A stretch of DNA of 23,147 nucleotides from a virus, in IMG/VR virus record IMGVR_UViG_3300020433_000050, positions 1-23,147 of that record. One strand, written 5' to 3'. The position numbers were made by a program, and so were the translations under genes. Positions 3,301 to 23,147 of the stretch are shown here, in pieces. The notes beneath the pieces are model-generated. The model worked only from the letters and a program-made list of their open reading frames with translations, was not told the origin of the DNA and searched no databases. The stretch's first letter is position 1. Each line of letters opens with the position of its first letter.

Positions 3301-3303
3301 TGG

Positions 3304-3335: not shown

Positions 3336-3355
3336 AGTAAGCACACAGGTATACA

Positions 3356-4170: not shown

Positions 4171-4300
4171 AGTAAAACTATTCGTGGCAGGACAAGTATT
4201 CGTAGAAGAAGTCCGTGCACGTAATTACGACGAAGCTAGAGAGGTAGCACTAGCACGTAACCCTAATGCTACTGTGTTAGGAGTAACTGCGGTATTCTAA
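4160..4300 (+). CDS. Small conserved hypothetical protein (46 aa)
   Basis: ATG 4160 overlaps the end of the previous gene in another frame; the frame ends at TAA 4298-4300. The 46 residues MKHEVKLFVAGQVFVEEVRA... read as a strand, a second strand, then a helix (YDEAREVALARNPN) and a last strand, a compact beta-beta-alpha-beta unit. The pattern 'LFVAGQVF...V.A..Y..A...A..RNP.A' is familiar from small uncharacterised cyanophage proteins located near tail genes. Function unknown. TAATG overlap with the next gene implies coupled translation. Confidence 0.6.
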   Translation: MKHEVKLFVAGQVFVEEVRARNYDEAREVALARNPNATVLGVTAVF

Positions 4301-4485
4301 TGAAAACAAAACATTATGCCTTTATAGGATTCTGTGTAGGAATCTTCTCGAGTAGTATGGTTTATCTTGGTGTAAGTAATAATAGACTTGCGGATACCCA
4401 TGATGCTTTATCTGCGGATATCAACCTGATAGTAGAGATTATGACTAGCCAAGGTGAGAGATATCCACTTAACCAGTTGTATTAA
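4300..4485 (+). CDS. Small single-span membrane protein (61 aa)
   Basis: The ATG at 4300 overlaps the preceding TAA (TAATG). Residues 5-25 (HYAFIGFCVGIFSSSMVYLGV) form a hydrophobic span preceded by MKTK, predicting an N-terminal anchor with a short polar C-terminal domain of about 35 residues outside or inside the membrane. Size and single anchor are compatible with an accessory lysis protein such as a spanin- or pinholin-like component, or with a signal-anchored small protein; nothing in the sequence decides. No lipobox cysteine is present. Function unknown. Confidence 0.65.
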   Translation: MKTKHYAFIGFCVGIFSSSMVYLGVSNNRLADTHDALSADINLIVEIMTSQGERYPLNQLY

Positions 4486-4497
4486 AAAAAATCGCGA

Positions 4498-4752
4498 ATG
4501 GAAAAAAATGGCGTCCCCGAGTTTAAAACTGAGATGGAAGCGGTTGCTTGGTCTTTCAAACAACTCAGTGAAGCAGTAAAAAATTTAGCGTCTCGCATCT
4601 CGGTGTTAGAAACAGCATTTAATAAGTTACCTCCACCTGGGGCGAATATGGTAAAGTATAAGATACCTGGGGATGAGGAGTATAGCAACCTTAAGGAGTT
4701 GTTTGATAATCTGTATGAGAGACTAAATAAATTGGAAGAATCTAACAAGTAG
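4498..4752 (+). CDS. Coiled-coil small protein upstream of the large structural gene (84 aa)
   Basis: ATG 4498 to TAG 4750-4752. About residues 12-42 form an amphipathic helix with a heptad pattern (EMEAVAWSFKQLSEAVKNLA then SRISVLETAF), a PPPG turn follows (45-48), and a second charged helix runs from about 62 to the end (LKELFDNLYERLNKLEESNK). This looks like two coiled-coil segments, suited to oligomerisation or to chaperoning a virion protein. The TAG stop overlaps the GTG start of the 1240-residue structural protein (TAGTG), so the two products are probably made together. No function recognised. Confidence 0.65.
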   Translation: MEKNGVPEFKTEMEAVAWSFKQLSEAVKNLASRISVLETAFNKLPPPGANMVKYKIPGDEEYSNLKELFDNLYERLNKLEESNK

Positions 4753-7700: not shown

Positions 7701-8474
7701 AAGCAACCTAAACCAGTGCTTATGCCTAGAAGAGTAGTCCCTAAGATTGGTGCAAGCGGAGATGCGAAGACATGGAATTGTAATGACGGTACTGTAGATG
7801 GACGTTGTTACCGTGACCCCAATAACTCCGCAGATATTATATTTGTCCCTGTAGGTGGAGATGAGAATACTTATGACTATAACTCTCTAGGAGGATTTAA
7901 TGAGGTGCAGCAACTACAACTATGGATAGGCAATAACTTAAATGGCACAGGTAGTAGCACTGTAAGTTGGAATAACCCTGATGGTGGAAGCGGGTCTATG
8001 CCTTACTCATCTCTTAGTGTCAACTGTGGGTCATACCCAGGTGCGGAGTGTTGGGACACATATACTCGCGGAAGCGGAAACACTACAGGACCTTTAAACG
8101 TCTTCTCTGGATATGATGGCACTGGAAATGGAATCCCAGGAAATAGATGGTGGGAGATATCCGCATTTGGTGTAACTAATCCGTGGTGCACAGGATGCGG
8201 TGGTAGTGGTAGCGGACCTAGCGTAGGATTGACATTCGTTAATGATGTGTCTATTGCAACTAATCCACAGAGAGTAGATGAAAATAACAATATGCGATTA
8301 GGACCGTATAATGGTAAAATGACAGTAAGGAATTGGTTGAATGGTAGCACTATCGCATTAGGTAGAGCATTAAATAATACAGGCAATCCATTCTTTGATG
8401 AATGTAGTACAGAAGTGCCTCAGGGAAGACCGTATAACATAGGAAACAAAATTAACGACGGAGACATTGCATAG
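4752..8474 (+). CDS. Large virion structural protein, probably tail/baseplate (1240 aa)
   Basis: A 1240-residue protein starting at GTG 4752. Residues 86-276 hold up to three tandem units resembling the DUF5648 surface repeat: FRWYRPSKDDHHYS (87-100), YYSYWPDDTILT with RIIGYVFTS (150-189), and PIYHYKL...DNFYTIDP...YQGIIGYCFAQ (205-276). Two GxGY beta-repeats like those of the giant protein occur at about 590-620 (GLGY 611-614) and 700-725 (GSGY 717-720). The C-terminal third is rich in G, N and S and contains CTGCGGSGSG, giving a probable fibrous or beta-rich end. Cysteines cluster (C75/C79 and CC in DIPCCPN). No enzyme motif found. It is coupled to the genes on both sides and lies before the PAAR-like gene, so a spike, hub or tail-fibre role is likely. 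Cyanophage homologues are known to me only as structural proteins. Confidence 0.75.
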   Translation: MAAFIQETGRSFPNPIGGPTYKETFKRPASGKYRSHANHSGPGTDYNITFNGSGAGSNPLGEDVVFYIGAANRECVDYCDFQRQGIFRWYRPSKDDHHYSNDGLGKEAFGHEDESWQKAIKGYNAEPRSGKPVFYVMSKQVTGSEPLKMYYSYWPDDTILTVGSNSPVNVGVGRNYYKFIRIIGYVFTSEAAAQDFRENDEDIFPIYHYKLQRNGQDISPQFGFNPSQPPSGADIDNFYTIDPTREVNITGGPIASPQPRDREYVYQGIIGYCFAQDSSAAPVERVVQGSAIGPTGNGVDRSGWYAYDDDEYGSGRYAGSPAYSYNNYRMFDPVSYPGFNGAYPGTPGLAGWGNGTDGVEILDADANFEWFYGLSGATKAAVPRYLGFEDSYDTQFLYYLYDTTYPWNGPVFSCQYVLNDIPCCPNTTVGDDDECIPNFSFHSHFYEIRQDSWETTETRLKINDGSEDTNACFFEIDSKTKRLLFRYTSNNGNAFERGQKLNGWDINSVSYFGDELKCGLIELTGDGNDFTYGIPITSETGATATVLAGRGIPNKAGYCGVYEFPKRISYYKVEIDPNALIPHRTLDEAILKAVVNNKGEITDIDIINSGLGYKNPILKVIDPRVMDDFSASDTSKFVKKHSPKMNPDWKKAIPAPSSKDENQDHIENTYSIFDIKDRKNQATNKNREKQVFREAQIEITRVDSMGAIRSIRIIDGGSGYNQVNLPEVFVSDPEMMKFKSPTVDEGATSIDNMGKEMAEAFNAVGDYVPSLASDETDNRTSIVESLEEITQGKEILVPDSYIRVAENTTDTTRHCFNIKSDCINIDANAIVSKAMPDEEVFEYVSQLNPGVAKFEKEIMPIVYNTAKQVDTYNADNSHVYGAFGKSNCITTGQPKLYNITRWFDMPCAYLDVGNKNNLTSSLPNVEPVRRGASRIAADTEKAFGYLPYKYCASTEESASFRVSLEIKGKTIGAQGEAFMNFFKKQPKPVLMPRRVVPKIGASGDAKTWNCNDGTVDGRCYRDPNNSADIIFVPVGGDENTYDYNSLGGFNEVQQLQLWIGNNLNGTGSSTVSWNNPDGGSGSMPYSSLSVNCGSYPGAECWDTYTRGSGNTTGPLNVFSGYDGTGNGIPGNRWWEISAFGVTNPWCTGCGGSGSGPSVGLTFVNDVSIATNPQRVDENNNMRLGPYNGKMTVRNWLNGSTIALGRALNNTGNPFFDECSTEVPQGRPYNIGNKINDGDIA

Positions 8475-9007
8475 TGGCATTTGGATTTCTAAAACCTGTT
8501 ACTTCACTGAATGGATTACCTTGCAGTGGTCATGGTCTCTGTTTACCTTCCACTGTGCACTCCGTGCAATCTTGTGGTAGCGCACCAATACCGTATTCTA
8601 TAGTAATTAAGAATAAGACATGTTGGTGGCCACCTCAACCACTAGTACCAACCTTCCCCATTACACCTGAGCGTGCAATGGTGCAAGTAAACAGGATTCC
8701 TGTTATGGTATTTGGTGATACATTCACCCCGCACATCGCTGTATGCACAAATATAATAATCTATATGTGTCCATGTGGAAAATCGATGTGCCCTATACCA
8801 ACTCCCATTCCATGTAGTATACTAACTATAGAAGATAATGGTGGAGTTGGTCACATCAGAGTCTGTAACGCAACAACGCTTACAGTCTTTGCGCACAAAC
8901 GTCCATTAGCACGCATACTAGACCCGTTAGGTGTCGGAGTACCTGGATTCTCCTTACCTTGCTTCTCAGTTATTGCGTGGGGACACCCAACTGTGTTAGC
9001 ATCTTAG
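8474..9007 (+). CDS. Cysteine-rich PAAR-like protein, candidate spike tip (177 aa)
   Basis: The GTG start overlaps the previous TAG (TAGTG). The protein has 11 cysteines (17, 23, 34, 50, 91, 99, 101, 106, 114, 131, 163) and histidines at 20, 29, 87, 127, 141 and 171, a strong metal-binding signature. NRIPVMVFGDTFTPH (73-87) and the C-terminal WGHPTVLAS (169-177) match the 'PV...GD...' and 'GSPTV' strands of PAAR-repeat proteins, which cap the spike of contractile tails and bind a metal ion at the tip. It is about twice the length of a single PAAR domain, with an unusual proline/cysteine-rich insertion around 95-115. Position between the large structural protein and gp25 supports a role like T4 gp5.4. 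The assignment is by pattern only. Confidence 0.6.
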   Translation: MAFGFLKPVTSLNGLPCSGHGLCLPSTVHSVQSCGSAPIPYSIVIKNKTCWWPPQPLVPTFPITPERAMVQVNRIPVMVFGDTFTPHIAVCTNIIIYMCPCGKSMCPIPTPIPCSILTIEDNGGVGHIRVCNATTLTVFAHKRPLARILDPLGVGVPGFSLPCFSVIAWGHPTVLAS

Positions 9008-9024
9008 TAAATTAACCTTAAATT

Positions 9025-9171
9025 ATGGCAACAAAAACTGGAATGATGGGCTCAGTCTTTAATACAGACTCTAGACCCAAAAAATCTCGACAAGGAAGAG
9101 GAAAACATTCAAAATATTCTGCAACAAGCAGAAATGGAGCAAAGAAAAGGTATCGTGGACAGGGTAAGTGA
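9025..9171 (+). CDS. Small, strongly basic conserved phage protein (48 aa)
   Basis: ATG 9025 to TGA 9169-9171. The sequence MATKTGMMGSVFNTDSRPKK continues through RQGRGKHSKY to KKRYRGQGK, about one third K/R and almost no hydrophobic core, so it is probably disordered until bound to nucleic acid or to an acidic partner. Short proteins with an RPKK-x-RQGR...RYRGQGK layout are well conserved next to baseplate genes of cyanophages, as I recall, without a known role. GTGA overlap with the next gene shows coupled translation. Confidence 0.65.
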   Translation: MATKTGMMGSVFNTDSRPKKSRQGRGKHSKYSATSRNGAKKRYRGQGK

Positions 9172-9824
9172 GTTTTTTAGTCCATAATTTACCTCCAAGA
9201 GAGATTTTAGTGAGAAAGGAGTATCTCTATGACCTAAAAAAGGGTCATGGAGAGTTTACTCCTGGGATTTGGATATCAGTTAAGAGTGTAGAAGCAAAAG
9301 CTTTGTATTTTGAGACACTTTTGACCGAGTATGGAGCACTTTTTGATAAATTACCACTAAGTGCCTTTGTTTGGAAGAAGGATCATGGCGATTTACTGCC
9401 ATTAGACACTTTACAACTGTGGGATTGCTTCGATTACAACATTACAGTCATTGAAAAACCCCTTTTAGGACGTTGCTCCTTCTTTGGAAAGGATAAAAAG
9501 ATGCATTCTGGCGAATATGAGTTTACTATTGACTCATGTCACAGTGAAAGCTCGACTCTCAACGTCAATTTTAGTGAATATGACCCCGAGCACAAGTCAT
9601 TTAACGTTATACGACTAGATAATGGTCAATTTGCTGCTCAACCAAACAATAGAATCATCTGGAAGGACATGAGTTTGATTCCAGAAAACACAAAAATGCC
9701 TGATTTTAATGTTTGTAGTCAGAATTATAGAGTAGAGACATCAGACAAGTGGTCAGTAGGGCATTCTGACGAATGGATGTATAAAACTGAGGAAGAAAAA
9801 AAATCTGAAAATGATGCTAAATAG
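9168..9824 (+). CDS. Conserved hypothetical virion-associated protein (218 aa)
   Basis: GTG 9168 overlaps the preceding TGA (GTGA). The 218-residue protein is soluble and of mixed alpha/beta character, with PPREILVRKEYLYDLKKGHG at 9-28, WISVKSVEAKALYFETLL at 35-52, and a very acidic/basic tail (EEEKKSENDAK). No catalytic motif is visible. Its place, two genes before gp25, is that of T4 gp53 or other baseplate assembly genes in related phages, but the sequence does not resemble T4 gp53 as I know it, so I do not assign that name. Similar proteins recur at this position in cyanophages as far as I recall. Function unknown; baseplate component or assembly factor is the best guess. Confidence 0.65.
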   Translation: MSFLVHNLPPREILVRKEYLYDLKKGHGEFTPGIWISVKSVEAKALYFETLLTEYGALFDKLPLSAFVWKKDHGDLLPLDTLQLWDCFDYNITVIEKPLLGRCSFFGKDKKMHSGEYEFTIDSCHSESSTLNVNFSEYDPEHKSFNVIRLDNGQFAAQPNNRIIWKDMSLIPENTKMPDFNVCSQNYRVETSDKWSVGHSDEWMYKTEEEKKSENDAK

Positions 9825-9876: not shown

Positions 9877-10032
9877 ATGGTGGTAAAAGTAGACCGAGCG
9901 GAATGGTTTATTGCCAGTGGGCAATCGTTAATCACTGACTATGTTGGTGATAAATATCAAGAAAAAGGATGTAAATGCCTAGCTACAGATTCAGAGCAGA
10001 AAAATACGTCAGTAGAGGTTTCAAGGATTTAG
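9877..10032 (+). CDS. Possible small protein overlapping the start of gp25 (51 aa)
   Basis: An excellent ribosome site AGGAGG (9868-9873) sits 3 bases before ATG 9877 and 6 bases before GTG 9880; the GTG has the better spacing. The frame reads MVVKVDRAEWFIASGQSLIT, then DYVGDKYQEKGCKC, and continues to TAG 10030-10032, overlapping the first 58 bases of gp25 in another frame. The part before the overlap looks like genuine protein. The tail inside gp25 looks less natural, so the true C-terminus may differ. No family recognised. It would be the only explanation for so strong a ribosome site here. Confidence 0.45.
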   Translation: MVVKVDRAEWFIASGQSLITDYVGDKYQEKGCKCLATDSEQKNTSVEVSRI

Positions 10033-10388
10033 CAATCTCAATGAGTGCTAACCCATCTACAAAAGATTTTGGTGCTGTGAAAAATGAGAGAGCAATCTCT
10101 CAATCTGTGCGTAACCTTTTATTGACTATGTTTGGTGAAAGACCTTTTCAACCTCAGATTGGGTCTAGAATCAAAAAACTTTTATTTGAAAACTGGGACG
10201 TCTTTGCTGCGGATGCTATTCGCACAGAGATTTTTAATGTTATGGAAAGACTAGAACCTCGAATCCAAGTGACAGAGGTTAAAGTAGATGATTCTCCAGA
10301 TAATAATGCTGTTGACATATCAATGGATTATATTATTGTAGGACAAGAATTAGTCCAAAACATAGAATTCTTATTAGAGAAGACGTAA
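9975..10388 (+). CDS. 25: Baseplate wedge protein gp25 (GPW/gp25 family)
   Basis: The 137-residue length and the signature AISQSVRNLLLTMFGERPFQ (40-59) followed by PQIGSRIKKLLFEN (60-73) identify the GPW/gp25 family. The G-E-R-P-F-x-P turn (E55, R56, P57, F58, P60) is the family's core. The C-terminal half alternates strands (IQVTEVKVDDS, AVDISMDYIIVG). In T4, gp25 joins gp6 and gp53 in the wedge, contacts the inner baseplate and helps nucleate the sheath, being homologous to the sheath's handshake domain. AAAGGA lies 7 bases before ATG 9975. gp6 begins one base after its stop, as expected for interacting partners. Confidence 0.95.
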   Translation: MPSYRFRAEKYVSRGFKDLAISMSANPSTKDFGAVKNERAISQSVRNLLLTMFGERPFQPQIGSRIKKLLFENWDVFAADAIRTEIFNVMERLEPRIQVTEVKVDDSPDNNAVDISMDYIIVGQELVQNIEFLLEKT

Positions 10389-10389
10389 A

Positions 10390-12543
10390 ATGCCTGCTAT
10401 ACCGTCACAATTAACCTCTCTAGATTTCTTTGAGATAAAAGAATCAATCAGGTCTTATCTAAGAACTAGACAAGAGTTTACTGATTATGATTTTGAAGGT
10501 AGTGCTGCCTCATATCTTATTGACATTCTAGCTTACAATACGTATTACACTGCATTCAACGCTAATATGGCATTGAATGAATCTTTTTTGGAATCTGCAA
10601 CCGTAAGAGATAATATTGTAAGAATTGCTAAACAATTAAACTACACTCCACGCTCAATCAAAGCACCTAAAGCATGTGTCCATATAAAAGCACAAACTAC
10701 TACAGCATTGAATGGCACTACGTTTCCTGAGTTTTGTGTATTGAGTAAAGGAGATGTATTTGTTGCTGATAACGCATTAGATACATTTACGTTTACCTTA
10801 ACTAGAGATATTCAAGTGCCAGTAGATACAGGCACAGGTATTGCAGACTTTTCTAACGTTATCATATATCAAGGTAATTTATTATCATTTAATTACACAG
10901 TTGATTACACTAAAAATCAAGAATTTGTAATTCCTGCAGAAAATGTTGATACTGAATTATTAACTGTTGATATTTCACCAAATGCACAGTCAAGTGAAAC
11001 TGATACTTACAACTTAGCAGGAAATGTAACGACACTTGATGAAAATTCTCGTGTTTTCTATCTTGAGGAGACTGATGACCAAAGATATAAAGTTATTTTC
11101 GGTGATGGTATAATAGGACGTCGTTTAATTGATGGTGAATTCATTACCATGAATTATGTGACCACAGTTGGTGTTGAAGCAAACGGTGCTGACAACTTTG
11201 CCTTTGTGGGACAGATAAGAGATTCAGATGGTCGCATAATACCTCCACAAAACATCACTACGATGACAAAGGAGAAGGCTCAGCAAGGTGAGAATGCAGA
11301 ATCGTCATTAAGTATTAAATTTAGAGCACCTAGAGCATATGCAACTCAAAACCGTGCTGTAACAGAATCAGACTACGAGCATATAGTAACTGAAATATAC
11401 CCACAGGCAGCGTCTGTAACCGCCTACGGTGGCGAGAAACTATCTCCACCTGTATATGGTAAGGTATACGTTGCAATTAGACCAAAAACAGGAAATAAAC
11501 TAAATGAGTCTACAAAAGCAAAAATTGAAAAAGATTTAAGAAAGTTTGCAGTTGCATCTATTCAACCTGAGGTGATTGACCCAACCAGTTTCTTTATTAT
11601 TCCAAAAGTTTATGCTTATTACAATGCAAATCAAACTGGACTTACTGGAAGTCAACTAGGTACTAAAATTTTACAGTCAATCGATGAATTTAACAGAAAC
11701 GGACAAACTGACAGATTTAATGATAGAATTGAAGGCTCAAAATTTGGTGCAATGGTCGATAATAGTGATACATCAATTTCTGGTAACGTTACACAACTTA
11801 CATTAGGACAAAATCTTGATAAATTCACTTTTGGTAATGTATTTACACAATGTTTGAATTTTGGTAACCCACTTTACGATCCTGGCAGTTTTGCAGGGAA
11901 TCCATCAGGAAGTGGTAGCGGTGGTAACGGTGGTATTGGAGATGGTAACGATGATGGTAGCGGTAATGGTGGAAATAACGGTCTAGGTGAAAAATGTAAA
12001 CCTAATTTCTCTGTTGTTAAGTCTGGGACATTTTATGCAACAGATTATACCGAAGATTTAGTAAATTTAACAACTGGCACAACCACAACTGCTGCTACAA
12101 CCGATACAGTCTTTTCTACTGATGATGCAACACAAGTTTTAGTCCCTGTAAACATCAGAGATGATGGAATGGGCAATCTTATGTTAGTTACAACTAGAGA
12201 TGAGTCAGAAGTTGTATTAAATGCTGCTGTAGGCACTGTGGACTATGGTAGTGGACAAGTTTGTGTAGGTCCTATTGCTATACAACAAACACCTGACGGG
12301 TCAGAGCAACTTCCAATCGCTGTTATGCCAATATCTCCAACTATTGAGATTCCCCCAGGTGTAGACCCTACTTTCTTTAATCCATCAGTCAATCCTATCG
12401 ATTACAACACCCAAAGTTTACCTGTTGCGGCTTTTGACCCTAATAATTTTTCTGGTTATAACTTAGGTGACACAAGTGGTCTAAATATCATTGACTACCC
12501 CTCAGATACCTTTACGTATCCAGTAGATACCTCTTGTTTCTAG
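10390..12543 (+). CDS. 6: Baseplate wedge protein gp6 (baseplate J-like)
   Basis: The 717-residue protein follows gp25 by one base. Its N-terminus (FFEIKESIRSYLRTRQEFTD, 13-32, then SYLIDILAYNTYYTAFNANM, 41-60, and an RDNIVRIAKQLNYTPRS helix) is typical of T4-type gp6, and the core has FGDGIIGRRL (237-246) and a TESDYEHIVTEIYP segment as in baseplate J-like proteins. gp6 dimers form the ring that joins the six wedges and binds gp25 and gp7. T4 gp6 is 660 residues. Here a glycine/asparagine-rich stretch (about 505-533) separates the core from a beta-rich C-terminal region (about 535-717) with IPPGVDP and Asn/Pro-rich segments. That low-complexity linker is unusual for a wedge core protein. Confidence 0.92.
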   Translation: MPAIPSQLTSLDFFEIKESIRSYLRTRQEFTDYDFEGSAASYLIDILAYNTYYTAFNANMALNESFLESATVRDNIVRIAKQLNYTPRSIKAPKACVHIKAQTTTALNGTTFPEFCVLSKGDVFVADNALDTFTFTLTRDIQVPVDTGTGIADFSNVIIYQGNLLSFNYTVDYTKNQEFVIPAENVDTELLTVDISPNAQSSETDTYNLAGNVTTLDENSRVFYLEETDDQRYKVIFGDGIIGRRLIDGEFITMNYVTTVGVEANGADNFAFVGQIRDSDGRIIPPQNITTMTKEKAQQGENAESSLSIKFRAPRAYATQNRAVTESDYEHIVTEIYPQAASVTAYGGEKLSPPVYGKVYVAIRPKTGNKLNESTKAKIEKDLRKFAVASIQPEVIDPTSFFIIPKVYAYYNANQTGLTGSQLGTKILQSIDEFNRNGQTDRFNDRIEGSKFGAMVDNSDTSISGNVTQLTLGQNLDKFTFGNVFTQCLNFGNPLYDPGSFAGNPSGSGSGGNGGIGDGNDDGSGNGGNNGLGEKCKPNFSVVKSGTFYATDYTEDLVNLTTGTTTTAATTDTVFSTDDATQVLVPVNIRDDGMGNLMLVTTRDESEVVLNAAVGTVDYGSGQVCVGPIAIQQTPDGSEQLPIAVMPISPTIEIPPGVDPTFFNPSVNPIDYNTQSLPVAAFDPNNFSGYNLGDTSGLNIIDYPSDTFTYPVDTSCF
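11908..11988 (+). repeat. Glycine-rich low-complexity linker in gp6
   Basis: Residues about 507-533 of gp6 are almost only G, S, N and D (GSGSGGNGGIGDGNDDGSGN and on). The DNA shows imperfect repeats of GGTAGCGGTGGTAACGG type, so it could expand or shrink by slippage. It lies at the junction of the conserved core and the C-terminal region. Confidence 0.75.
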
Positions 12544-12550
12544 GTGAAGA

Positions 12551-15500
12551 ATGCAAACAAAGAATATTAACGTATCGGATAGAGTTGAAAATCAACTTCC
12601 TGAGTTTATTAGGCAAGAGGATAGACAACTTGTAAATTTTCTCTTTGAGTATTACAAATCTCAAGAGAAAACAGGACGTCCTTATGACATTCTGAATAAT
12701 TTACTAAATTACCTCAATCTTGACAGTTATAACTCTAAAACGCTGTCTAGCTCTACAGCATTGCTTGGTGATATTAGTACGATTGACACAAAAATAGAAA
12801 TAGAGAGTATTGACGGATTTGTCGAGAAAGATGGCTCGATAATGATTGATAATGAGGTCATTTACTATGAAACAGTAACTAGAGGACCTGATGCCATCAT
12901 CACCCCAGGTGTATCTTACCCTCAATTCAATAAAAAGAAACAACAACTAGAAAATCCATTTATTTTGTTTGATGGAGTAAGAAGAGAGTTTCCTTTATCA
13001 TTTTTAGGCACTCCTGTATCACCTCCTTCAGCTGAGCACCTTATTGTCGTCACATATAATGATATGCTGACACCTGGGGTTGATTATACGATTAATGGTA
13101 GTAATATTACATTTACAGTAGCACCTAGAGAAAGAAGTGGTGCAGATGATTCAGAATTTACTCAAATTACATATTTGGTTGGTTATGCAGACCAAAATAT
13201 CGTAACGTTAGATGATATTCATTTTAGCGAGTGGCAAGGGACAAAAAACTATCCATTACGAGTAAATGGTAAGGCATATAATCCTACATCCGATATTGGT
13301 CTTGTAATTAACAAAAATGGTAGGTTACAAGAGCCATATGTTGACTATACTGTTTTTGAAACCACAGTAGTCTTTAATAATCCTATTGGAGCAGCAGACG
13401 AAATTAAAATTAGGTCTGTTGAGTATATTGCTCCTGTTTTTGGTAGTGGTGCAAGTGCAGTTGTTGCTGTTAATGCTGCAGGACAAGTTTCTAGAATTAT
13501 TCCTAAAACAGGTGGTAGTAAATATCGTTTAGACTTTAATCCTAGAGTAATCATCACTTCTGACAAAGGAAAAGGTGCTACTGTTAGGTCTTTGATTGGT
13601 GGTATCAAAAATATTAACTTAATTGATGGTGGACAAGGATATAACTCTTTTAACCCACCTATACCTGTTGTAGCAACTCCTACTGACCCTAATGGCACTC
13701 CTGCAAAGGTATCTTTAACTGTAAATGATGAAACAGGTAGAGTTGACACTATTACTATAGATGATAGTGGTAGTGGATATGGATTTATCCCATCTATTAC
13801 ATTTAAAAATCCATCAGGTGCTACAATCAGTGATTGCACCATTGATAGTGAAGGTAGAGTAAATGTAGACAGTATTGAAGTATTGACAATGGGTAGTGGT
13901 TATTCTAACCCTCCTACTGTGTATATTGACCCTGCCCCTGCTGATGGCATCAACGCACAAGCACAAGCAAGAATAAACCAAGATGGTCAAGTATATGAGA
14001 TACAAATAACCAATAGAGGTAGAGGATATGTAACTACACCTAGAGTTGCTATTATAGACCCTGTTGGTGCACAAGTCCTTGATGTTACTGTTGCATCTGG
14101 GTCAGTTACAAATATTGAGATGTTAACAGGTGGTAGTGGTTACACTGATGCTCCATCTGTGTATATTGTTGACGATAGAAAGGATGGATTTGGCGAACCT
14201 ATTGGTGGTACTGGTGCAACTGCTGCAGCAACCATATTCAACGGTGAAATTACTGATATCAACATTACTAACTTTGGTACTGGATATTCTGCAGAGTTTC
14301 CTCCTAAAATTTTCATCTCTGAACCTAAAGCAGCAAGAGCATCTTTAGATGTTGGATTTGACGAAGTTACTGGATATGATGTAATAGAACCTGGCATAGG
14401 TTACTCACCTTCTGCTTTTTTAAACTGCTCTAGAGGGGTTTCTGGACCTGTTACATACGATAATTATCATAACGAGGTATATGCCAGTGAAGCAAATCTA
14501 AGACAGTCTAATCACTTTGCAGGAGCAAGTGTTGTCAATTTAGACAGTCTTTTTATAAAAGAAGTATTTGATAAGTTTAGAAGACAATATTTACCTACCC
14601 TAGACATTGATTTTTCTAAAGTCAATCCTGTGCAAGTCATTAAAAATATTAGTGACTTCTACATCTCAAAAGGTACAGAATTAGCAACTCAATATTTGTT
14701 TAAAATTCTTTTTGGTGAGAATGTATCATTATTCTATCCAAGAGATGAAATCATCTCCGCATCTAACGCTACATGGGTCGTAGACACTGTTTTGCGTGCT
14801 GAGTTGATATCTGGTGACCCTGCTAACTTAATTGACTCTCAAGTAGTCCAATTTGCAGACCCTGTTGACTTAAACATTAAACAAGCAAATGCATTGATTG
14901 AAAATGTCATTACTATCATTGAAGGTACTGATACAATCTATGAATTAGCAATATCTGAAGAAACATTAATAGGTGATTTTAAAATTCCCTATAAAACGAC
15001 TCTAGTCGAGCCTTTATCTACAACTGGTCAAATAATTACCGTCGACTCGACTATTGGATGGCCAGAAAGGAATGGTACTATATTAATCAACGATGAAGAG
15101 CAAGTCCAGTATAAAGAGAAGTCACTTAACCAGTTTATTGAATGTACTCGTAGTAAAAACGGTATTGTAGAGGATTGGGACCCAGGTACTATTATTCAGT
15201 CTGATATTTTCGTATATACAAATAGAGGCACTCCTACCGAGTGTAAGATGAGAATTCTCGGTATTGCTGAGGCAGGCACAACAGTATTGAATGATACTGG
15301 GTCTTATTACCTTAAAGGTGATAAATTAAAAGTTGCTAATTTAGGTGCAACAGATATTGATGAAAGATTAACTTCTTGGTTATATAACGTTAAAAAACTT
15401 ATTAAAGTTGCCTCAGCAACCCCAGGTGGTGTCAATAACCAAACAGCAACCATAGTTTGCGATAATCCACATGGTTTACTTGTTTCTGACCAAGTTACAA

Positions 15501-18500
15501 TTTATGGTGCAAACCCTGTTGTATATAATGGCACATTTACAGTTACTGCACGTTTAGATGACTTTTCTTTCTCCTATCAATTAAACGTCCCTACAGAAAT
15601 TATACCTGAGGGTAATATTCTATTATCTGTTGATTTAAACAGAGGTAAATCAGATGTAACTTCTATTAACAAAGTTGTTAGTGAGTTTACCACTAATATA
15701 CAAAACTCATTCTTTAATGACTCATATGTTTATGTTGCAGCGTCAGGATTACCCAACTATAAGATAGGACCTTTTACTGGGTCTGCTCTTATCCCAGGTA
15801 ACCAAAGAAAACTACTAAGATTTCCTAGAGTTGTTGAAACTATATCTGAAAGGCAAGATATTGCTGCTAACAGTCCAATAGGTACATGGATAAATGGTGT
15901 ATCTATCTGGGGTTACAAATCTGGAGATTTTGTCCAATTCGGACCTTTAACACAAATTACTGTTGATAATTCTGGTGAAGGATATGATGCAGGAGCAAAA
16001 CCAACTGTAGAAATTACAGGTGGTGGAGGTACAGGTGCTGCTGCTGAGGTAATTGTAAATGGTAGTCTTACAGGATTTGATGTAACTGCAGGGGGTAGTG
16101 GATATACAGAATCACCTCTTGTGTCTATTGTTGGTGGAGGTGGTAGCGGTGCTACTGCACAAGCAGTTATTACTGGTGGTAGAGTTACTAGAATATTAGT
16201 AGAGCAATCTGGTACTGGATACACAACTCAACCCAGTGTGTCTATTACAGGTGGTGGAGGTACAGGAGCAGAAGCAACTGCAAGTGTTAGAGGGTCTATT
16301 CAATCTGTTAACATTACTAACTTCGGTACTGGTTATACATCACTTCCTACCGTAAGAGTCAATTCTGGTGAAGGTGCATTAGCACAAGCGATTGTTATCA
16401 ACGGTAGAATCGTATCCATTGCTATTATTAACTCAGGTAGTGGATATACAACTGCGCCAACAGTTATTATCAATGGTGATGGATTTGGTGCTATAGCAAA
16501 AGCAACTATTGGCACAATAGGTGAAGATAAAGGACGTGTATTGGGAATTACTATTCTTAACAGAGGTATAGGATATACACAAGGTAATACAACTATTAGA
16601 TTAGAGGCAGTTGGTCAACTTGCAGAATTTACTCCAGAAGTCTTCAAATGGAATAAAAACTTAGAATATGATTTATCATCCAAGTATGATGATGCAAAAG
16701 GTTATGTATTTACTGGATATAATAATCAGTTTGGTGGTGAATATGCTCATTTATCTGACCCTAAAGAATTAAGATATGTTGTTGGTGATAACGTATTTTT
16801 AAACCCTGTTACACAAAGATTCCAAGAATTAGAATCTAATTTCCAACATTCTCCAATATTAGGTTGGGCATTTGACGGTAACCCAATATACGGTCCTTAT
16901 GGTTACATTGACCCTACTGACCAAAACAGTGGTATTAGAAGATTACGCACATCATATAAACTAAAGGCAAATGTTGTATTTGACGAAGCAACTAACCCGA
17001 ATCCTGCTAGAGTAGACGGACCTTTACTATCAACTTTCCCTGCAGGGACATTTGTTGCTGACTATTTTTATGATTTCCAATCTGGAGACCTAGACAATTA
17101 TAATGGACGTTTTTGTAAAACTCCTGAGTATCCAGATGGCACGTATGCATACTTTATCACTATCGATGCATCAGACACTGGTATTCCAGAATTTCCTTAT
17201 ATCTTAGGACCTCAATTCAACTCACTTCCTGATAATTGGAATTTCTCACAAACTGCAACACAAGAGAATATTCCAGATGGTGTTGTAAGATTTAGAGACC
17301 CATATGTGAATGTTGATATTGATGTTGACCGTCAACCTAACCAAGAGGCAGATGTCCTTACAACTGAAATAGAAGGATATCCTATTATCTTTGAAGTGCA
17401 GGATAGTAATAATGATGGTATTATCGATGCTAACGAGCAACAAGAGATACTTGAGATGTCAGAAGAGGCAACTCTACAAATCTATGATTACTTCCCACAA
17501 GTATCTGCAGAATCTAGAGTTGATATTGAAGTTGAGACAACCACTCAGTTTGAAGATGCACAAATAGACGGATTTGTTATTGAAAACCCAGGTGAGTCTT
17601 ATCAGGTTAATGATACTGTATTCTTCGATGATGAAGGCACTGGTGGTTTTGGTGCATCTGCAATTATTGAATCTGTCAAAGGTAATACTGTATTAGGTTA
17701 CACTAAAGAAATAATTGGTGACCGTCCTTACGGTGTTATTACAACTGATATTGGTCATGAGTTGAGAGCAGAGGATGAAATTATTGTTAACTCAACACCT
17801 ATCATTGATAACACTAACAAACTGTTTAAAGTAAAAGTCGTTGCGGGTATTGAGTCATTAACTGTTAACGCATCAGGCACAGGATACAATTCTGATATTC
17901 CACCAACATTTGAATTGATTACTGAATCAGGTCAAGATGCTCAATTAAGAATTAATTTACTTAATACTGGTAATATTGATACTGTTGATATTATCAATTC
18001 TGGTAATGGGTATGATACTGAGAATCCTCCTCAAATTCGTATATCACATCCACAACAGTTTAAGAAAACTCGTTATTGGTTATCAGAATACTATGAAGCA
18101 TCTGCTAATGTTGTAATCAATGATATCCAAATAACTGATAAAAGATTTACTTACATTGTAGGTACTATTATTGAGACTGATGGAGACCAATCTGGTTTCA
18201 TTGCTAAGTTTGATGACTTAGGACAGAGAGTTTGGGAAAGATATTACATTCCACAAAACCAGAATCAAAAGAAAGCTGAATTCTTAAAGATGTATCTAGA
18301 TACGTCACAAGAAAACGACGTCATTTATGTTACAGGCCAAACATATGACCCTCAAAACCTAGTCTACAACCCAGACATATGGTTAGGAAAATTTGAGTCT
18401 GGATTTAATAATGCAAACGAACCTGATGGTATTTTAGAATGGCAAAAGGCAATAGCTGGTATATCAGGTAGCACAAGAAGAGATTATATTACTACTATTG

Positions 18501-21500
18501 CACTAGACCAAGAAAAACGTATCTACATTGGTGGTTATACAGATAGTAATTCACCTGACCCCAATGATATGTGGATTATTCAGTGTGATATAGATGGTAA
18601 TTTAGTAGAGAAACGTAAGATTGCATCTGAGGATGGGTCAGAAGAGATGACACAAGTTATGTGGGTGTCTGATGATAGATTCTTCTTCACTGGTGTAAAT
18701 GATGAAAATAATGATTTAATTTTTGGTGAAATTTTCTATGACGGAGCAAATATTGAAATTGATTACATTCGTCAGATGCCAGCTATTGGTGGATACGTTA
18801 GAAATCCAAAATTCATTAAAGATAATTATGGAGATATTGTTTTAATATTTGATGTCTATAATAATGCTTCTAATAAGACTGATAAAATCCAGATTAACAA
18901 ATTTGCCTATGCAACTGCAAAATCATCTTGGGAATGGGCAAAAACAATCACACTCAGCAATACAACATTCAGAAACATATACCATTCTGGTATAACTGTT
19001 GATGCATTTGGTAATTACACTGTTGTAGCAGATGTTGATGAGAGTGAAAATAACAGATATTCCATTATTACTTACATGAAGTATAATGGCACAATTATAA
19101 GTGAAACTAAGATTGATGATACTGCTAGTGTTGGATTTAGGTCTAAATCTCATGCTGTAGATAATTCTGGTGACCCAATACTTGCTGTAGACCGTCAAGT
19201 GCCAAACCAGATAGCATCTTTCCGTTTTAATGATGAGAATAATCTAACCTTTGACCATACCAAACTTAATAAAGGCACTTGGCAGTATGTAGACCAAAAT
19301 GAAATATCTGTAGATACAAATATCTACAAGTATGGCACAGGGTCAATGAAGATTAACTCTGCTGCACCAGTTGCAATAACAAACCTTGAGACTGTAACTG
19401 TAGAGTGGTCTACACAAGCATGGTTTGCTATGGATACTACAACATATGCAACTAACCATAAACCAATACTATTTGCTATATTACCCACAGCTGGTGAAGA
19501 AATATTTTGTGAATTAGATGGAGATGCAACTTCACCTGGGTTTGGTAAAGTTTATATACATCTTAATAACGTCCAAGTAGCAGGGTCTACTGCATCAACA
19601 TATTGGACAGGTTTTGGTGGTGCATCATGGAATCATGTATTATTCCAAAAACGTGAAGAATCATTAGGTCTTTATAAGTATGAAGTTTATATTAATGGAA
19701 ACCTAGCAGTAGAATATCAATCAACAACTGATGTGTCTCTTAGTGCACTAACTGTTGGCGGACCTATAACTGCACCAACATCTGCTAACTGTTATGTTGG
19801 ACACGTTGATGATTTAGTAATCGATGATGTAGCACCATACTCTGCTACATTCTCTGCTCCTACTGCTGAGCTTCCTATCACCATGTCAAATAGTGATGCT
19901 GCTCTTATTAAATTTGATAGATTGCATAGTAAAGCAGGGTCTTACACAATGTCAGGTTTGACTAACCATTCAAACTATTCATTTACAGATATAACTGCTA
20001 ATACATTATGGAGTGATGTTAATATTCCTGCTATTAGTGTATGGCAGATAGGACCTGGTGGATTACAGATTCTTGATATGTCTCAGACAGTATCAACTAT
20101 AACCAACAGCACATATACATTAACAGCAAACAAATATGAGTATGGCACTAAGACATCTACAATACCATCACCACAAGGTAGACAATTAGAAATTACTGCA
20201 AACGTTGTTAAAAAATACTACTTACGAGATGCCTTATATCAAAAAATTGATAACGTAAAAGAATTTACATTTACTCAAGATGTAGTTTTAACTAAGGGTA
20301 GCATATTACAACAGTTTAATGCAGGAGGAGTTACAACAGCGTATGGCACGATTGTTGATGTGCCAGAAGGCACATTATTAAATCCTGGGTTTGGTAACAA
20401 ATATAAAGTTGGTAAGATATTTGGTAACTTTAATAATACAGATAGATTCCGCACAACTGCTAATGATGTAAACCAAATTACAGGCACATATTTTGATACT
20501 TTAGAAGAGGAAGACCCATGGCAGTCTGGTGTTGCATATAATACAGGAGACAGAGTTTATAATGGTCAGAAAATCTATGCAGCACAAGGTGCAGGCACGT
20601 CAGGCACTATAGCACCTGTCCATACAGCTGGTGTTGTAAGTGATGGTGTTATTAACTGGGCATTTATAGATGATGCGGGTAAATTTACTGTTGATTTAAC
20701 ACAACATCCATATCCAAGACCTCAATACCTTGATGGTGACATGCCAGAGTGGGTACCTGGATTACTATATGCCACTGGACAACGTGTCTGGTATAAGTTA
20801 AACGTTTATGAGGTAGCAGTTAGTGGTGGTGGTGTTGCAGGCACAACTGCACCTATCCACACTACTGGTGATGACACTGACGGTGGTGTCACATGGACAT
20901 TTGTAGAGACTAGAGAAGCAATCAGCCTCTACACACGGTTGATGCCATATGATATGGGTAATAACTACTCAGTGCAAATCGTAGATATCCAACCTGGGTC
21001 TACATTTATACCTGGGGACGTTGTTTCACTAAACAGTGGCAATATAACTCTTGCGGCTGATGAAAAGAGTGTTGAGATATCTGGATTTAAAGGTGTTAAG
21101 AAAATACGTGTTGTTGCTAGATTAGAAAAAGATATTATTAGGTCATCTGAAGTAAGGACTGAATTCTTATATGCAACTTCAAACAGTGCACATAACTTCT
21201 CTGTAGGAGACATTCTATTTACAGAAGGATTTCAAGGTAATCAATTTAATGGTAGTTTCTTCATTGACGAAATAATAGGGTCTAGAGAATTTACATTTGC
21301 TGTTAGGGAGACTGCATTAGATGACCCTACATTTGTTAATAATGCAATCGCTAGTGTTAACATATATGGTAAACATCCAACTTTAGAATTTACTAGAAAT
21401 CATCAATACGTTTTTGATGTATCCGACCCTTCTAACTTTGGTTACTATCTATCATTTTCACAAGATAACCAGTATAAATTAGAATATTCATTTAACAATA

Positions 21501-23147
21501 TTGAAAGAGCAGGTACCCCAGGTATTGATGCTACTGGGTCTAGCTCACCCTTTGTTAAATTCTCTGTATTAGGTGAAGTTACTAATATTTCATATTACTT
21601 TGACCCATCTAGATTAGGTGCAGACTCACCTGTTGGAAGTAATTCATTTATTGATGTTATAACAACTCCATTTCAAGGCACATTTACAATATCTGAAATT
21701 GTTACAGATTTCCAATTCAAATTCCCATTATTTAAGGAACCTGAAAGAAATGCTGCTGAAATTATCACAGATGAATTTGATAATCCATACACATTCTATT
21801 CTACAACTTCTACAAGAGCAGTAGGACCTATAAACAGTATCAAACTTGTTAGCCCAGGTGGTTTCTATCAGAAGTTACCTATTATTAGTGATATTGCATC
21901 ATTTAGACAGATTGAAAAAATTGTAGTTGTTGATGGAGGTACAGAATATGCCCCAGGTGTGTATTATGATGTGCCTATTAGCGGAGATGGAGAAGGTGCT
22001 AAGGCATCAATTCTGGTTGAATTAGATGATGAAGTTGGGTCAGGCACAATTAAATCTGCAACAGTAACAGACCCAGGTAAAGGATATACTACTGCATCTA
22101 TAGATATCGACGCTATCCCAGGTATCTTAGGTAGCACACTTGCAGGTTCTGGTGGTGCAGTAAACGTTATTATACCTTCTGAAGGTAGTGGTGCATCTGT
22201 ATTTTTAACTGGTAAAAATATTGGTAAGATTAAGAGATTAAAAAATAATGAATTTGGTTTTGGTTATTCACACGATTACACTTTAAAACCAGAGATTACA
22301 TTCCCTGTAAACTTACAACTCTTCAATACATCTATACTTTCACAGATTAAAATTACAAATCCAGGTTCAGGATATACTTCAACTCCTGCTGTTATAATCG
22401 AAGGTGGTGGAGGCACAGGTGCTGCTGCTGAGGCAATTATTAAGAATAATCGTCTTTCTGAAATTATCATTAAAAACCCAGGTGGAGGATATTCATCTGA
22501 GCCTACTGTAACTCTAAAATCAGAATTTAATTATGTTGTTAACTTAGACCTTAACTATCTACAGTTTAACTTCCCACATGGTATTACAACTGGTGCAGAA
22601 ATTCAGTTTAGAGCAGATAATGTTGGTAGCACAGTTGGTGAGTTACCAAAACCAAGTAGTGCGGGTTTAACCTCTTTAGTTGAAGGACAAACTTACTATG
22701 CTATTGCAGGAGAGGCAGCAGGATTAGAATCTGACCAAATTCGTTTTGGTTTAACCTTACAAGCAGCACAAGGTGGAGATTACATTACATTCTTGACACA
22801 GGGTAGTGGTCGTCAGACATTACTTACTGAAGTGTTTGGTGGTCAAGCAGAAGCTGTTGTAGAAACATCAAGATTCTTGGAAGGTGAGGAAGTATATCAA
22901 GGTAGTAGTCCTGAGACTGCTACTGCAGTCGGCACAGTATCTGTAAATACTGGTTGGCAAATAGGTCCTAAGATTCTTAAGATTGTTGATTACACTGGTG
23001 ATTGGGCAAAAGGAGAAAGAGTAACAGGTCAAATATCTAAGGCAGCTGGTGTTATTGATAACCTCAGCATTGCTCGTGGTGTATTGAATATTGGTTCACT
23101 AACTCGCACACCAGGTAGATTTATTGATGACGTTGGTAAACCATCAG
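12551..23147 (+). CDS. Giant mosaic baseplate/tail structural protein, incomplete at the right edge (at least 3532 aa)
   Basis: One reading frame stays open from ATG 12551, 7 bases after gp6, to the end of the window. Order of modules by residue: baseplate-type N-terminus (LPEFIRQEDRQLVNFLFEYY, 14-33); GxGY repeats (about 350-622); the second half of the baseplate module, NISDFYISKGTE...LFKILFGENV...YPRDE (699-733); an HGL-GD beta unit near 975-1010; GxGY repeats (1135-1355); a YHYH-like domain (about 1415-1557) with GWAFDGNPIYGPYGY and NGRFCKTPEYPDGTYAYFIT; an EF-hand loop (1618-1629); three more GxGY units (1675-1832); a propeller-like region (1870-2215); a LamG-like lectin fold (2222-2440); two CBM5/12-like units (2657-2705, 2734-2784); and further GxGY units (3118-3330). 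Such proteins follow gp6 in cyanophages and are virion components. A role in wedge assembly plus host or particle adhesion is inferred. The C-terminus is missing. Confidence 0.85.
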   Translation, partial: MQTKNINVSDRVENQLPEFIRQEDRQLVNFLFEYYKSQEKTGRPYDILNNLLNYLNLDSYNSKTLSSSTALLGDISTIDTKIEIESIDGFVEKDGSIMIDNEVIYYETVTRGPDAIITPGVSYPQFNKKKQQLENPFILFDGVRREFPLSFLGTPVSPPSAEHLIVVTYNDMLTPGVDYTINGSNITFTVAPRERSGADDSEFTQITYLVGYADQNIVTLDDIHFSEWQGTKNYPLRVNGKAYNPTSDIGLVINKNGRLQEPYVDYTVFETTVVFNNPIGAADEIKIRSVEYIAPVFGSGASAVVAVNAAGQVSRIIPKTGGSKYRLDFNPRVIITSDKGKGATVRSLIGGIKNINLIDGGQGYNSFNPPIPVVATPTDPNGTPAKVSLTVNDETGRVDTITIDDSGSGYGFIPSITFKNPSGATISDCTIDSEGRVNVDSIEVLTMGSGYSNPPTVYIDPAPADGINAQAQARINQDGQVYEIQITNRGRGYVTTPRVAIIDPVGAQVLDVTVASGSVTNIEMLTGGSGYTDAPSVYIVDDRKDGFGEPIGGTGATAAATIFNGEITDINITNFGTGYSAEFPPKIFISEPKAARASLDVGFDEVTGYDVIEPGIGYSPSAFLNCSRGVSGPVTYDNYHNEVYASEANLRQSNHFAGASVVNLDSLFIKEVFDKFRRQYLPTLDIDFSKVNPVQVIKNISDFYISKGTELATQYLFKILFGENVSLFYPRDEIISASNATWVVDTVLRAELISGDPANLIDSQVVQFADPVDLNIKQANALIENVITIIEGTDTIYELAISEETLIGDFKIPYKTTLVEPLSTTGQIITVDSTIGWPERNGTILINDEEQVQYKEKSLNQFIECTRSKNGIVEDWDPGTIIQSDIFVYTNRGTPTECKMRILGIAEAGTTVLNDTGSYYLKGDKLKVANLGATDIDERLTSWLYNVKKLIKVASATPGGVNNQTATIVCDNPHGLLVSDQVTIYGANPVVYNGTFTVTARLDDFSFSYQLNVPTEIIPEGNILLSVDLNRGKSDVTSINKVVSEFTTNIQNSFFNDSYVYVAASGLPNYKIGPFTGSALIPGNQRKLLRFPRVVETISERQDIAANSPIGTWINGVSIWGYKSGDFVQFGPLTQITVDNSGEGYDAGAKPTVEITGGGGTGAAAEVIVNGSLTGFDVTAGGSGYTESPLVSIVGGGGSGATAQAVITGGRVTRILVEQSGTGYTTQPSVSITGGGGTGAEATASVRGSIQSVNITNFGTGYTSLPTVRVNSGEGALAQAIVINGRIVSIAIINSGSGYTTAPTVIINGDGFGAIAKATIGTIGEDKGRVLGITILNRGIGYTQGNTTIRLEAVGQLAEFTPEVFKWNKNLEYDLSSKYDDAKGYVFTGYNNQFGGEYAHLSDPKELRYVVGDNVFLNPVTQRFQELESNFQHSPILGWAFDGNPIYGPYGYIDPTDQNSGIRRLRTSYKLKANVVFDEATNPNPARVDGPLLSTFPAGTFVADYFYDFQSGDLDNYNGRFCKTPEYPDGTYAYFITIDASDTGIPEFPYILGPQFNSLPDNWNFSQTATQENIPDGVVRFRDPYVNVDIDVDRQPNQEADVLTTEIEGYPIIFEVQDSNNDGIIDANEQQEILEMSEEATLQIYDYFPQVSAESRVDIEVETTTQFEDAQIDGFVIENPGESYQVNDTVFFDDEGTGGFGASAIIESVKGNTVLGYTKEIIGDRPYGVITTDIGHELRAEDEIIVNSTPIIDNTNKLFKVKVVAGIESLTVNASGTGYNSDIPPTFELITESGQDAQLRINLLNTGNIDTVDIINSGNGYDTENPPQIRISHPQQFKKTRYWLSEYYEASANVVINDIQITDKRFTYIVGTIIETDGDQSGFIAKFDDLGQRVWERYYIPQNQNQKKAEFLKMYLDTSQENDVIYVTGQTYDPQNLVYNPDIWLGKFESGFNNANEPDGILEWQKAIAGISGSTRRDYITTIALDQEKRIYIGGYTDSNSPDPNDMWIIQCDIDGNLVEKRKIASEDGSEEMTQVMWVSDDRFFFTGVNDENNDLIFGEIFYDGANIEIDYIRQMPAIGGYVRNPKFIKDNYGDIVLIFDVYNNASNKTDKIQINKFAYATAKSSWEWAKTITLSNTTFRNIYHSGITVDAFGNYTVVADVDESENNRYSIITYMKYNGTIISETKIDDTASVGFRSKSHAVDNSGDPILAVDRQVPNQIASFRFNDENNLTFDHTKLNKGTWQYVDQNEISVDTNIYKYGTGSMKINSAAPVAITNLETVTVEWSTQAWFAMDTTTYATNHKPILFAILPTAGEEIFCELDGDATSPGFGKVYIHLNNVQVAGSTASTYWTGFGGASWNHVLFQKREESLGLYKYEVYINGNLAVEYQSTTDVSLSALTVGGPITAPTSANCYVGHVDDLVIDDVAPYSATFSAPTAELPITMSNSDAALIKFDRLHSKAGSYTMSGLTNHSNYSFTDITANTLWSDVNIPAISVWQIGPGGLQILDMSQTVSTITNSTYTLTANKYEYGTKTSTIPSPQGRQLEITANVVKKYYLRDALYQKIDNVKEFTFTQDVVLTKGSILQQFNAGGVTTAYGTIVDVPEGTLLNPGFGNKYKVGKIFGNFNNTDRFRTTANDVNQITGTYFDTLEEEDPWQSGVAYNTGDRVYNGQKIYAAQGAGTSGTIAPVHTAGVVSDGVINWAFIDDAGKFTVDLTQHPYPRPQYLDGDMPEWVPGLLYATGQRVWYKLNVYEVAVSGGGVAGTTAPIHTTGDDTDGGVTWTFVETREAISLYTRLMPYDMGNNYSVQIVDIQPGSTFIPGDVVSLNSGNITLAADEKSVEISGFKGVKKIRVVARLEKDIIRSSEVRTEFLYATSNSAHNFSVGDILFTEGFQGNQFNGSFFIDEIIGSREFTFAVRETALDDPTFVNNAIASVNIYGKHPTLEFTRNHQYVFDVSDPSNFGYYLSFSQDNQYKLEYSFNNIERAGTPGIDATGSSSPFVKFSVLGEVTNISYYFDPSRLGADSPVGSNSFIDVITTPFQGTFTISEIVTDFQFKFPLFKEPERNAAEIITDEFDNPYTFYSTTSTRAVGPINSIKLVSPGGFYQKLPIISDIASFRQIEKIVVVDGGTEYAPGVYYDVPISGDGEGAKASILVELDDEVGSGTIKSATVTDPGKGYTTASIDIDAIPGILGSTLAGSGGAVNVIIPSEGSGASVFLTGKNIGKIKRLKNNEFGFGYSHDYTLKPEITFPVNLQLFNTSILSQIKITNPGSGYTSTPAVIIEGGGGTGAAAEAIIKNNRLSEIIIKNPGGGYSSEPTVTLKSEFNYVVNLDLNYLQFNFPHGITTGAEIQFRADNVGSTVGELPKPSSAGLTSLVEGQTYYAIAGEAAGLESDQIRFGLTLQAAQGGDYITFLTQGSGRQTLLTEVFGGQAEAVVETSRFLEGEEVYQGSSPETATAVGTVSVNTGWQIGPKILKIVDYTGDWAKGERVTGQISKAAGVIDNLSIARGVLNIGSLTRTPGRFIDDVGKPS
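13604..14421 (+). repeat. GxGY beta-repeat block 1 (about seven units)
   Basis: Units of roughly 35-45 residues share the pattern I-x-I-x-x-x-G-x-G-Y-x-x-x-P-x-V-x-I, with turns GQGY, GSGY, GSGY, GRGY, GSGY, GTGY and GIGY. A degenerate unit (GSKY) lies just before the block. The regular strand-turn pattern suggests a beta-solenoid or stacked beta arch. The block sits inside the split baseplate module of the giant protein. Confidence 0.75.
15956..16615 (+). repeat. GxGY beta-repeat block 2 (six units)
   Basis: Six consecutive units with GEGY, GSGY, GTGY, GTGY, GSGY and GIGY, most followed by P-x-V-x-I and GGGGTGA. Repeat length is about 32-36 residues. DNA-level similarity to the unit at 22403 and to block 1 is high (36 bases with 2 mismatches; 27 bases with 2 mismatches). 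Confidence 0.8.
21905..22512 (+). repeat. GxGY beta-repeat block 3 with interruptions
   Basis: Units with GTEY, GKGY, GSGY and GGGY are spread over about 200 residues (3118-3320), with a spacer of other sequence between the second and third. The pair GSGYTSTPAVIIEGGGG and GGGYSSEPTV is the closest match to block 2. Confidence 0.7.

Follow-up and report, generated by a model that had tools for sequence, protein, structure and literature searches.

Which protein is encoded by a reading frame that starts directly behind the baseplate wedge gene gp6 and reaches the end of a viral contig without meeting a stop, and where in the virion would such a product act? The window, i.e., the whole stretch of 23,147 bases analysed here, corresponds to the linear virus contig of the source record. 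The features located in it are listed in Table 1, together with the loci of related phages that were used for comparison.

Table 1. Location of the features in the window and of selected loci in related phages (residue numbers refer to the giant protein concerned)
Feature	Location	Strand	Basis
1,240-aa ORF	window 4752-8474		phrog_22792
PAAR-motif protein	window 8474-9007		phrog_281
218-aa ORF	window 9168-9824		phrog_3704
gp25 baseplate wedge	9975..10388	+	PF04965, E 5e-14
gp6 baseplate wedge	10390..12543	+	phrog_219, 654 bits; Pfam Gp6-like_1st, E 7e-18
Giant gp7-type wedge gene, 5' half, open at the contig end	12551..23147	+	ORF list, translation; phrog_701; colinearity
First part of the gp7 core (residues 1-110), helices at the N-terminus	12551..12880	+	alignment with the beginning of gp7 in S-SM2 and P-HM2
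Beta-rich insertion, residues 111-620	12881..14410	+	BLAST blocks; AF2 pLDDT about 90; repeat HMM
gp7 core, second part, residues 621-950	14411..15400	+	hhalign with T4 gp7 family; Foldseek; VIA
Beta-repeat block 2, 6 repeats	15938..16645	+	repeat HMM
YHYH domain PF14240, residues 1393-1540	16727..17170	+	Pfam, E 3e-28
Beta-repeat block 3, 2 repeats	17840..18091	+	repeat HMM
Predicted beta-propeller, about residues 1840-2224, late closing strand about 2444-2467	18068..19960	+	AF2 model
Predicted LamG/concanavalin-type domain, nested in the propeller ahead of its closing strand	19226..19880	+	AF2 pLDDT about 90
Two tandem CBM5/12-like modules, about residues 2624-2789	20420..20917	+	phmmer and inspection
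Beta-repeat block 4, 4 repeats	22040..22558	+	repeat HMM
S-SZBM1 giant, tandem phycobiliprotein-like domains, residues about 4091-5341	L002:20998-24750
G009 giant, tandem phycobiliprotein-like domains	residues 4028-5251
S-SZBM1 giant, C-terminal stretch, residues 6187-6325	L002:27286-27702
S-RIM44, cpeT-adjacent locus	L375:1511-14809
ACG-2014e, cpeT-adjacent locus	L376:1741-14858
S-CAM1, cpeT-adjacent locus	L377:2309-14991

The open frame and its full-length relatives

The giant frame was found at 12551..23146 (+) as a single open frame of 3,532 codons, its 3' end being cut by the contig end and its start lying 7 bases past the end of the gp6 ORF (12543). The ORF list and the translation contain no stop within it, confirming the uninterrupted frame of at least 3532 codons, placed directly after gp6, that an initial annotation of this DNA had claimed. 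The other five frames carry 132–519 stops each over 12551-23146, and the G+C content by codon position in the giant frame (0.48/0.41/0.20) is typical of coding DNA. Relatives were retrieved from IMG/VR with the last 382 residues of the frame, and in 29 of the 29 relatives checked, all of them independent contigs, the frame was open, with 5,442–6,875 open codons inside the stored stretch; its anticipated continuation past the contig end holds as well. The metagenomic contig ends inside the gene, which could point to an artefact of assembly or to a chance frame. This explanation was rejected as virtually inconceivable, since isolates carry the same gene, the frame is equally open in dozens of independent contigs of relatives, and it bears a coding signature.

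Among the IMG/VR relatives, G002 is 91% identical over the shared part and has 6,869 open codons with its 5' end absent; its full length would be about 7,470 aa once the absent 5' part is counted. Both start and stop are present in the giants of G006 (9,560 aa) and G009 (9,914 aa, calculated mass of 1.08 MDa, on a 199,258-base contig with gp6 upstream), and the next tail gene follows directly 3' in each of them. The window holds the 5' half of the gene, for which about 7,000 codons or more are expected from the family. This family is already known: the phrog_701 profile covers residues 5-3532 of the window giant (4,683 bits), and the Kyanoviridae members, named 'baseplate wedge initiator / virion structural protein', measure 4,156–8,573 aa in isolates. 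They include S-SZBM1_208 (UNH61325.1; 6,619 aa), S-WAM1 gp159 (6,737 aa), P-TIM40 gp099 (7,351 aa), P-RSM6 CPXG_00128 (8,573 aa, from a 25,722-base CDS), syn9 gp101 (6,076 aa), a P-SSM3 protein annotated as 'similar to gp7' (7,312 aa), and the proteins annotated as 'gp7' in P-HM2 (4,454 aa) and S-SM2 (4,156 aa).

The giants of S-SZBM1, S-WAM1, and P-TIM40 occupy the same gene position and are colinear over all 3,532 residues of the window giant with 59–63% identity, and the giants of syn9 and P-RSM6 share this position, the syn9 protein being colinear over most of these residues with 48–50% identity. The labels of the isolate giants are merely virion structural protein, hypothetical, fibre, or wedge initiator, and no description of their domain content, including the phycobiliprotein-like domains treated below, was found in the searchable literature. 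In the full-length comparison, the part common to the giants spans about 4,300 residues at the N-terminus and 1,250–1,800 at the C-terminus, and the middle differs by thousands of residues. Homologues as a whole form a size ladder of 586, 631, 896, 1,007, 1,454, 1,942, and 3,032 up to 9,914 aa. With a full length of about 6,600–9,900 aa in colinear relatives, the product ranks, as had been proposed, among the largest virion proteins of the phage.

Mass spectrometry of particles purified with CsCl recovered 71 peptides of S-SZBM1_208, covering 13.5% of the protein (PMC9146016) and providing for a 60%-identical homologue the proteomic check that the initial annotation had suggested. This coverage is compatible with a non-intact chain, i.e., with a product that is cut into pieces during assembly and leaves no giant chain in the particle. 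We consider such processing improbable, given the number of peptides recovered from purified particles for a homologue of 6,619 aa and the conservation of both chain ends across relatives. A C-terminal stretch of the S-SZBM1 giant (Table 1) shares about 30% identity with the N-terminal insertion at residues 140-275, an internal duplication spanning both chain ends.

Relationship of the N-terminus to T4 gp7

Synteny, profiles, and predicted structure identify the N-terminus of the giant as the T4 gp7 wedge domain, the core of which corresponds to the 'baseplate module' of the initial annotation. The gene order gp25-gp6-giant is shared by the window, P-TIM40, S-WAM1, syn9, P-HM2, and S-SM2, and the order in T4 is gp6-gp7-gp8. 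Because plain BLAST of the giant against T4 gp7 aligned 26 residues only (E 8e-4), profiles were used. Ten aligned cyanophage and related proteins matched the family of T4 gp7 (hhalign, E 2e-7), and the short homologues of 586–1,007 aa, from phiM19 (1,007 aa), Melnitz-2 (896 aa), OC (631 aa), and Desulfovibrio phage 7757 (586 aa), when aligned together, matched T4 gp7 639-888 at E 1e-13; the direct profile match between the giant and T4 gp7 is short (31–157 columns). Neither alignment gave a profile match to T4 gp6, gp8, gp9, gp10, gp11, gp12, or wac. Residues 1-110 and 621-950 were shown to be homologous to T4 gp7 about 640-890, split by the beta-repeat insertion. For the first part, which was modelled as low-confidence helices (AF2), the short homologues align to T4 gp7 from residue 639 on, and the second part contains the motif DFYISKGTELATQYLFKILFGE. 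No counterpart of T4 gp7 residues 1-640 was detected by profiles in the giant, and since the short homologues of other phages are likewise without a match, the T4-type 1-640 part may not be universal among gp7 proteins.

The AlphaFold model of residues 1-1000 had a pLDDT of 80. Ranks 1 and 2 in Foldseek were T4-type baseplate chains of gp7 length (9f4a, E 2.8e-4; 5iv5, E 7.8e-3), which we infer to be gp7 from their length and the aligned region; one match was below 1e-3, and the TM was about 0.08, owing to the multi-domain model. VIA placed model residues 740-950 onto residues about 760-857 of T4-type chains with Z values of 7.9, 7.7, and 6.8. Overall, VIA scored highest (Z up to 10.7) for model residues 813-886, which matched beta-barrels of phages and ATPases. 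As this beta-barrel arrangement is common, the gp7 matches (Z 6.8–7.9), which cover a single domain, would not convince by themselves; they are consistent with the assignment and count as support solely alongside the sequence profiles and the gene order, which agree with it.

When compared to T4 gp7 (1,032 aa), the giant is alike in its place after gp6 and in its homologous wedge domain, but this domain is N-terminal, is split by an insertion, and is followed by thousands of residues absent from T4. The gp7 proteins of P-HM2 and S-SM2 have a homologous core and the same order gp25-gp6-gp7-gp8, although they are shorter than the giant and lack the 111-620 insertion at the same place; S-SM2 gp7 is also without phycobiliprotein-like domains.

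T4 gp7 has been stated to be absent from cyano- and pelagimyophages, apparently being substituted by VrlC (Zaragoza-Solas 2020; PMC7029224), and the syn9 gene is annotated as 'putative fiber'. On this basis, the giant could be a fibre or adhesin gene that merely adjoins gp6, with the true gp7 lost and VrlC in its place. We regard this as very unlikely, as VrlC, orf530, and orf615 did not match T4 gp7 (E values of 0.15 or worse), whereas the core of the giant and the short syntenic homologues do match it with the E values given above. The downstream protein annotated as gp8 matched gp8 (3.5e-13) and orf495 matched gp9/gp10, while VrlC and two more downstream proteins matched none of the T4 wedge proteins tried with profiles. 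VrlC was rejected as a gp7 replacement in view of the absent profile match, and the published replacement claim is not supported. The orf615 family (copies of G009, G002, and G006; SSZBM1_205 type) was also rejected as gp7 because its profile did not match that of T4 gp7; the name 'baseplate wedge initiator' carried by SSZBM1_205 (OL473597.1, 615 aa) therefore looks wrong.

Surface-type modules and proposed role

An HMM built on the repeats counted 20 beta-repeats in four blocks (residues 310-640, 1130-1365, 1764-1847, and 3164-3336), most of block 1 being contained in the 111-620 insertion; the repeats seen in the initial annotation are present, and its 'over 20' was a slight overcount. GxGY motifs occur 19 times, compared with a mean of 1.5 and a maximum of 7 in 1,000 shuffles, and their positions are conserved in relatives. 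The YHYH domain scored 99.5 bits against a curated cut-off of 25, and this domain has been predicted elsewhere to be a metal-dependent hydrolase (PMC7824862). The propeller model reached VIA Z values of up to 31.6 with the CylK propeller and 26–27 with PLL/PHL lectins and WD40 proteins, and its sequence includes an SBBP repeat match (E 0.0019, Pfam). For the LamG-type domain, Foldseek returned AbnA domain 4 (5hon, TM 0.67 of target) and laminin LG modules. Residues 2624-2707 matched PDB 7eea (phmmer E 1e-7), the receptor-binding domain of a short-tailed cyanophage tailspike, whereas the giant has one or two such modules inside a baseplate protein. The second CBM5/12-like copy, at residues 2732-2789, was recognised in the sequence by eye, and the CBM_5_12 match to the tailspike-like modules reached only E 0.97 (Pfam). 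NCBIfam gave no match. The announced 'at least five' surface or lectin-type modules are therefore upheld for YHYH (Pfam), for the beta-propeller and the LamG-type domain (predicted structure), and for the first copy of the tailspike-like tandem (7eea match), the second copy being judged by eye only. A gp7-type domain is joined to many surface-type modules, supporting the proposal that wedge and adhesion-type modules are linked in one chain.

Taken as a whole, the frame is probably the 5' half of the expanded gp7 gene of a T4-like marine cyanophage (Kyanoviridae); the core of the product would be anchored in the baseplate, and its remainder would form a peripheral array at the host surface. In the T4 baseplate, monomeric gp7 occurs six times, is located at the periphery, and together with gp8 provides a platform for gp6 (PMC3004832). 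By likeness to T4, where the one gp7 copy of each wedge contacts gp6, gp8, and gp10, there would be one giant per wedge and six per virion, and the gp7 core would build the giant into the baseplate, touching gp6 and gp8. The remaining chain would extend as a large array with its modules directed outward and touching the host surface. S-SZBM1, S-WAM1, P-RSM6, and P-TIM40 have been reported, in one paper, to be without long tail fibres (PMC9146016), so the giant may do the work of these fibres in the closest isolates.

Alternatively, the modules past the core could be structural spacers or a protective coat of the baseplate and not receptor-binding elements, given that beta-repeats and propellers also act as scaffolds and that T4 gp7 itself is partly architectural. 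We regard this as the less likely reading, since residues 2624-2707 resemble a cyanophage tailspike receptor-binding domain, LamG and YHYH modules are present, and the middle part of the chain is variable. On the expanded-gp7 reading, gp7 is retained in marine T4-like phages, its length having risen from about 600 to about 9,900 residues with the uptake of surface modules, and these chains offer an approach to host recognition in phages for which long tail fibres have been reported missing.

Phycobiliprotein-like domains and cpeT

Distal to the window end, relatives longer than 4,400 aa carry a row of 2–9 phycobiliprotein-like domains, so called for their resemblance to light-harvesting proteins of the cyanobacterial host; in most of these giants, the row starts near residue 4,030–4,200. 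The Pfam phycobilisome family matched the distal part of the S-SZBM1 giant at 5.9e-12, and an HMM built on those stretches counted two copies in P-HM2, three in syn9, nine in P-TIM40 (some weak), and six or seven each in S-SZBM1, S-WAM1, G009, G006, and G002. The window itself contains no such domain in any frame, the first domain of the relatives being located about 500 residues past the contig end; from G002, we infer that the window phage possesses them.

When a profile of 21 domains was searched against the PDB, the best 60 matches listed were all phycobiliproteins or derivatives, with phycocyanin alpha (2vjr) at the top (E 4.4e-8), and the phage cysteine fell on the CxRD cysteine in the phycocyanin alpha alignment. 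After masking CxxD, 59 of the 60 listed PDB matches were still phycobiliproteins (best E 1.5e-5), and the remaining one was a globin, which fits the superfamily. PF00502 was found in 10 of the 21 single domains at E up to 1 (best 2.7e-4; none in the first member), and the whole-genome PF00502 matches were mostly under the curated cut-off. Since these single-domain Pfam scans are weak, the phycobiliprotein assignment relies on the PDB search with the profile, together with its masked control. Among 306 distinct domains, ungapped positions had Cys in 271 of 284 and Asp in 283 of 296, and Arg in only 151 of 294; in bilin-binding globins, CXRD has been named as the motif (PMC10151467). The helical stretch and the bilin-site C-x-[R/x]-D are shared with phycobiliproteins (PF00502; 2vjr). 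Unlike these, the phage domains occur in 2–9 copies inside tail or baseplate proteins, and their C-terminal half has diverged, half of the domain being unaligned to phycobiliproteins beyond profile position 63 in most matches. Over the bilin-site helix region, the distal domains of the relatives can be regarded, judging from sequence comparison, as homologous to phycobiliproteins. In the openly available literature searched, no report of phycobiliprotein-like domains in phage structural proteins was found.

A tblastn search with one domain returned 352 phage records, all belonging to Synechococcus or Prochlorococcus phages or named 'Cyanophage', and the matching proteins are annotated as tail, tail fibre, neck, YadA-domain, or structural. 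The domain profile and PF06206 (CpeT) were then searched in 17 complete cyanophage isolates: both were found in 10, neither in five, the domain alone in two (S-SKS1 and ACG-2014f), and CpeT alone in none (Fisher p 0.0034, for a small chosen sample whose isolates are treated as unrelated by descent). T4, phiM19, Melnitz-2, and OC had neither the domain nor CpeT. In S-RIM44, ACG-2014e, and S-CAM1, cpeT is situated zero or one protein gene upstream, on the same strand, of a large domain-bearing tail-type gene (Table 1), and a 2OG-Fe(II) oxygenase/prolyl 4-hydroxylase gene lies between them in two of the three loci. Both S-CAM1 genes, cpeT and the tail-type gene, are annotated as hypothetical, and their identities were assigned here by profile. 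Bilin reductase (PF05996) was present in P-TIM40, P-RSM6, P-HM2, P-SSM3, and G009, and in none of the Synechococcus phages tested. Prochlorococcus is without ordinary phycobilisomes. The benefit of bilin genes to Prochlorococcus phages has been stated as unclear (PMC2984593).

As a tentative proposal, possible but doubtful, the window chain may continue, as in the 91%-identical G002, into six phycobiliprotein-like domains that would bind bilins in the virion; the phage CpeT lyase, plus PebS/PcyA where present, might then make and attach the bilins of the phage's tail and baseplate proteins, either instead of serving the host antenna or in addition to it. The cysteine on which CpeT-type lyases are said to act is a different one (beta subunit, position 153; PMC10452541), an argument against this idea in its simplest form. 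With the domains found only in cyanophages and tracking cpeT, the long-standing question of what purpose the phage bilin genes serve becomes testable, above all in Prochlorococcus phages.

Other genes of the window lie upstream of the wedge genes (Table 1). The match of the 218-aa ORF carries the label ferredoxin (putative); bilin reductases are ferredoxin-dependent. Part of the 1,240-aa ORF resembles the 'baseplate wedge subunit' phrog_719 (E 6.5e-21), and the giant-gp7 isolates have similar-sized ORFs in the corresponding position. The PAAR-motif protein is encoded just upstream of the wedge genes.
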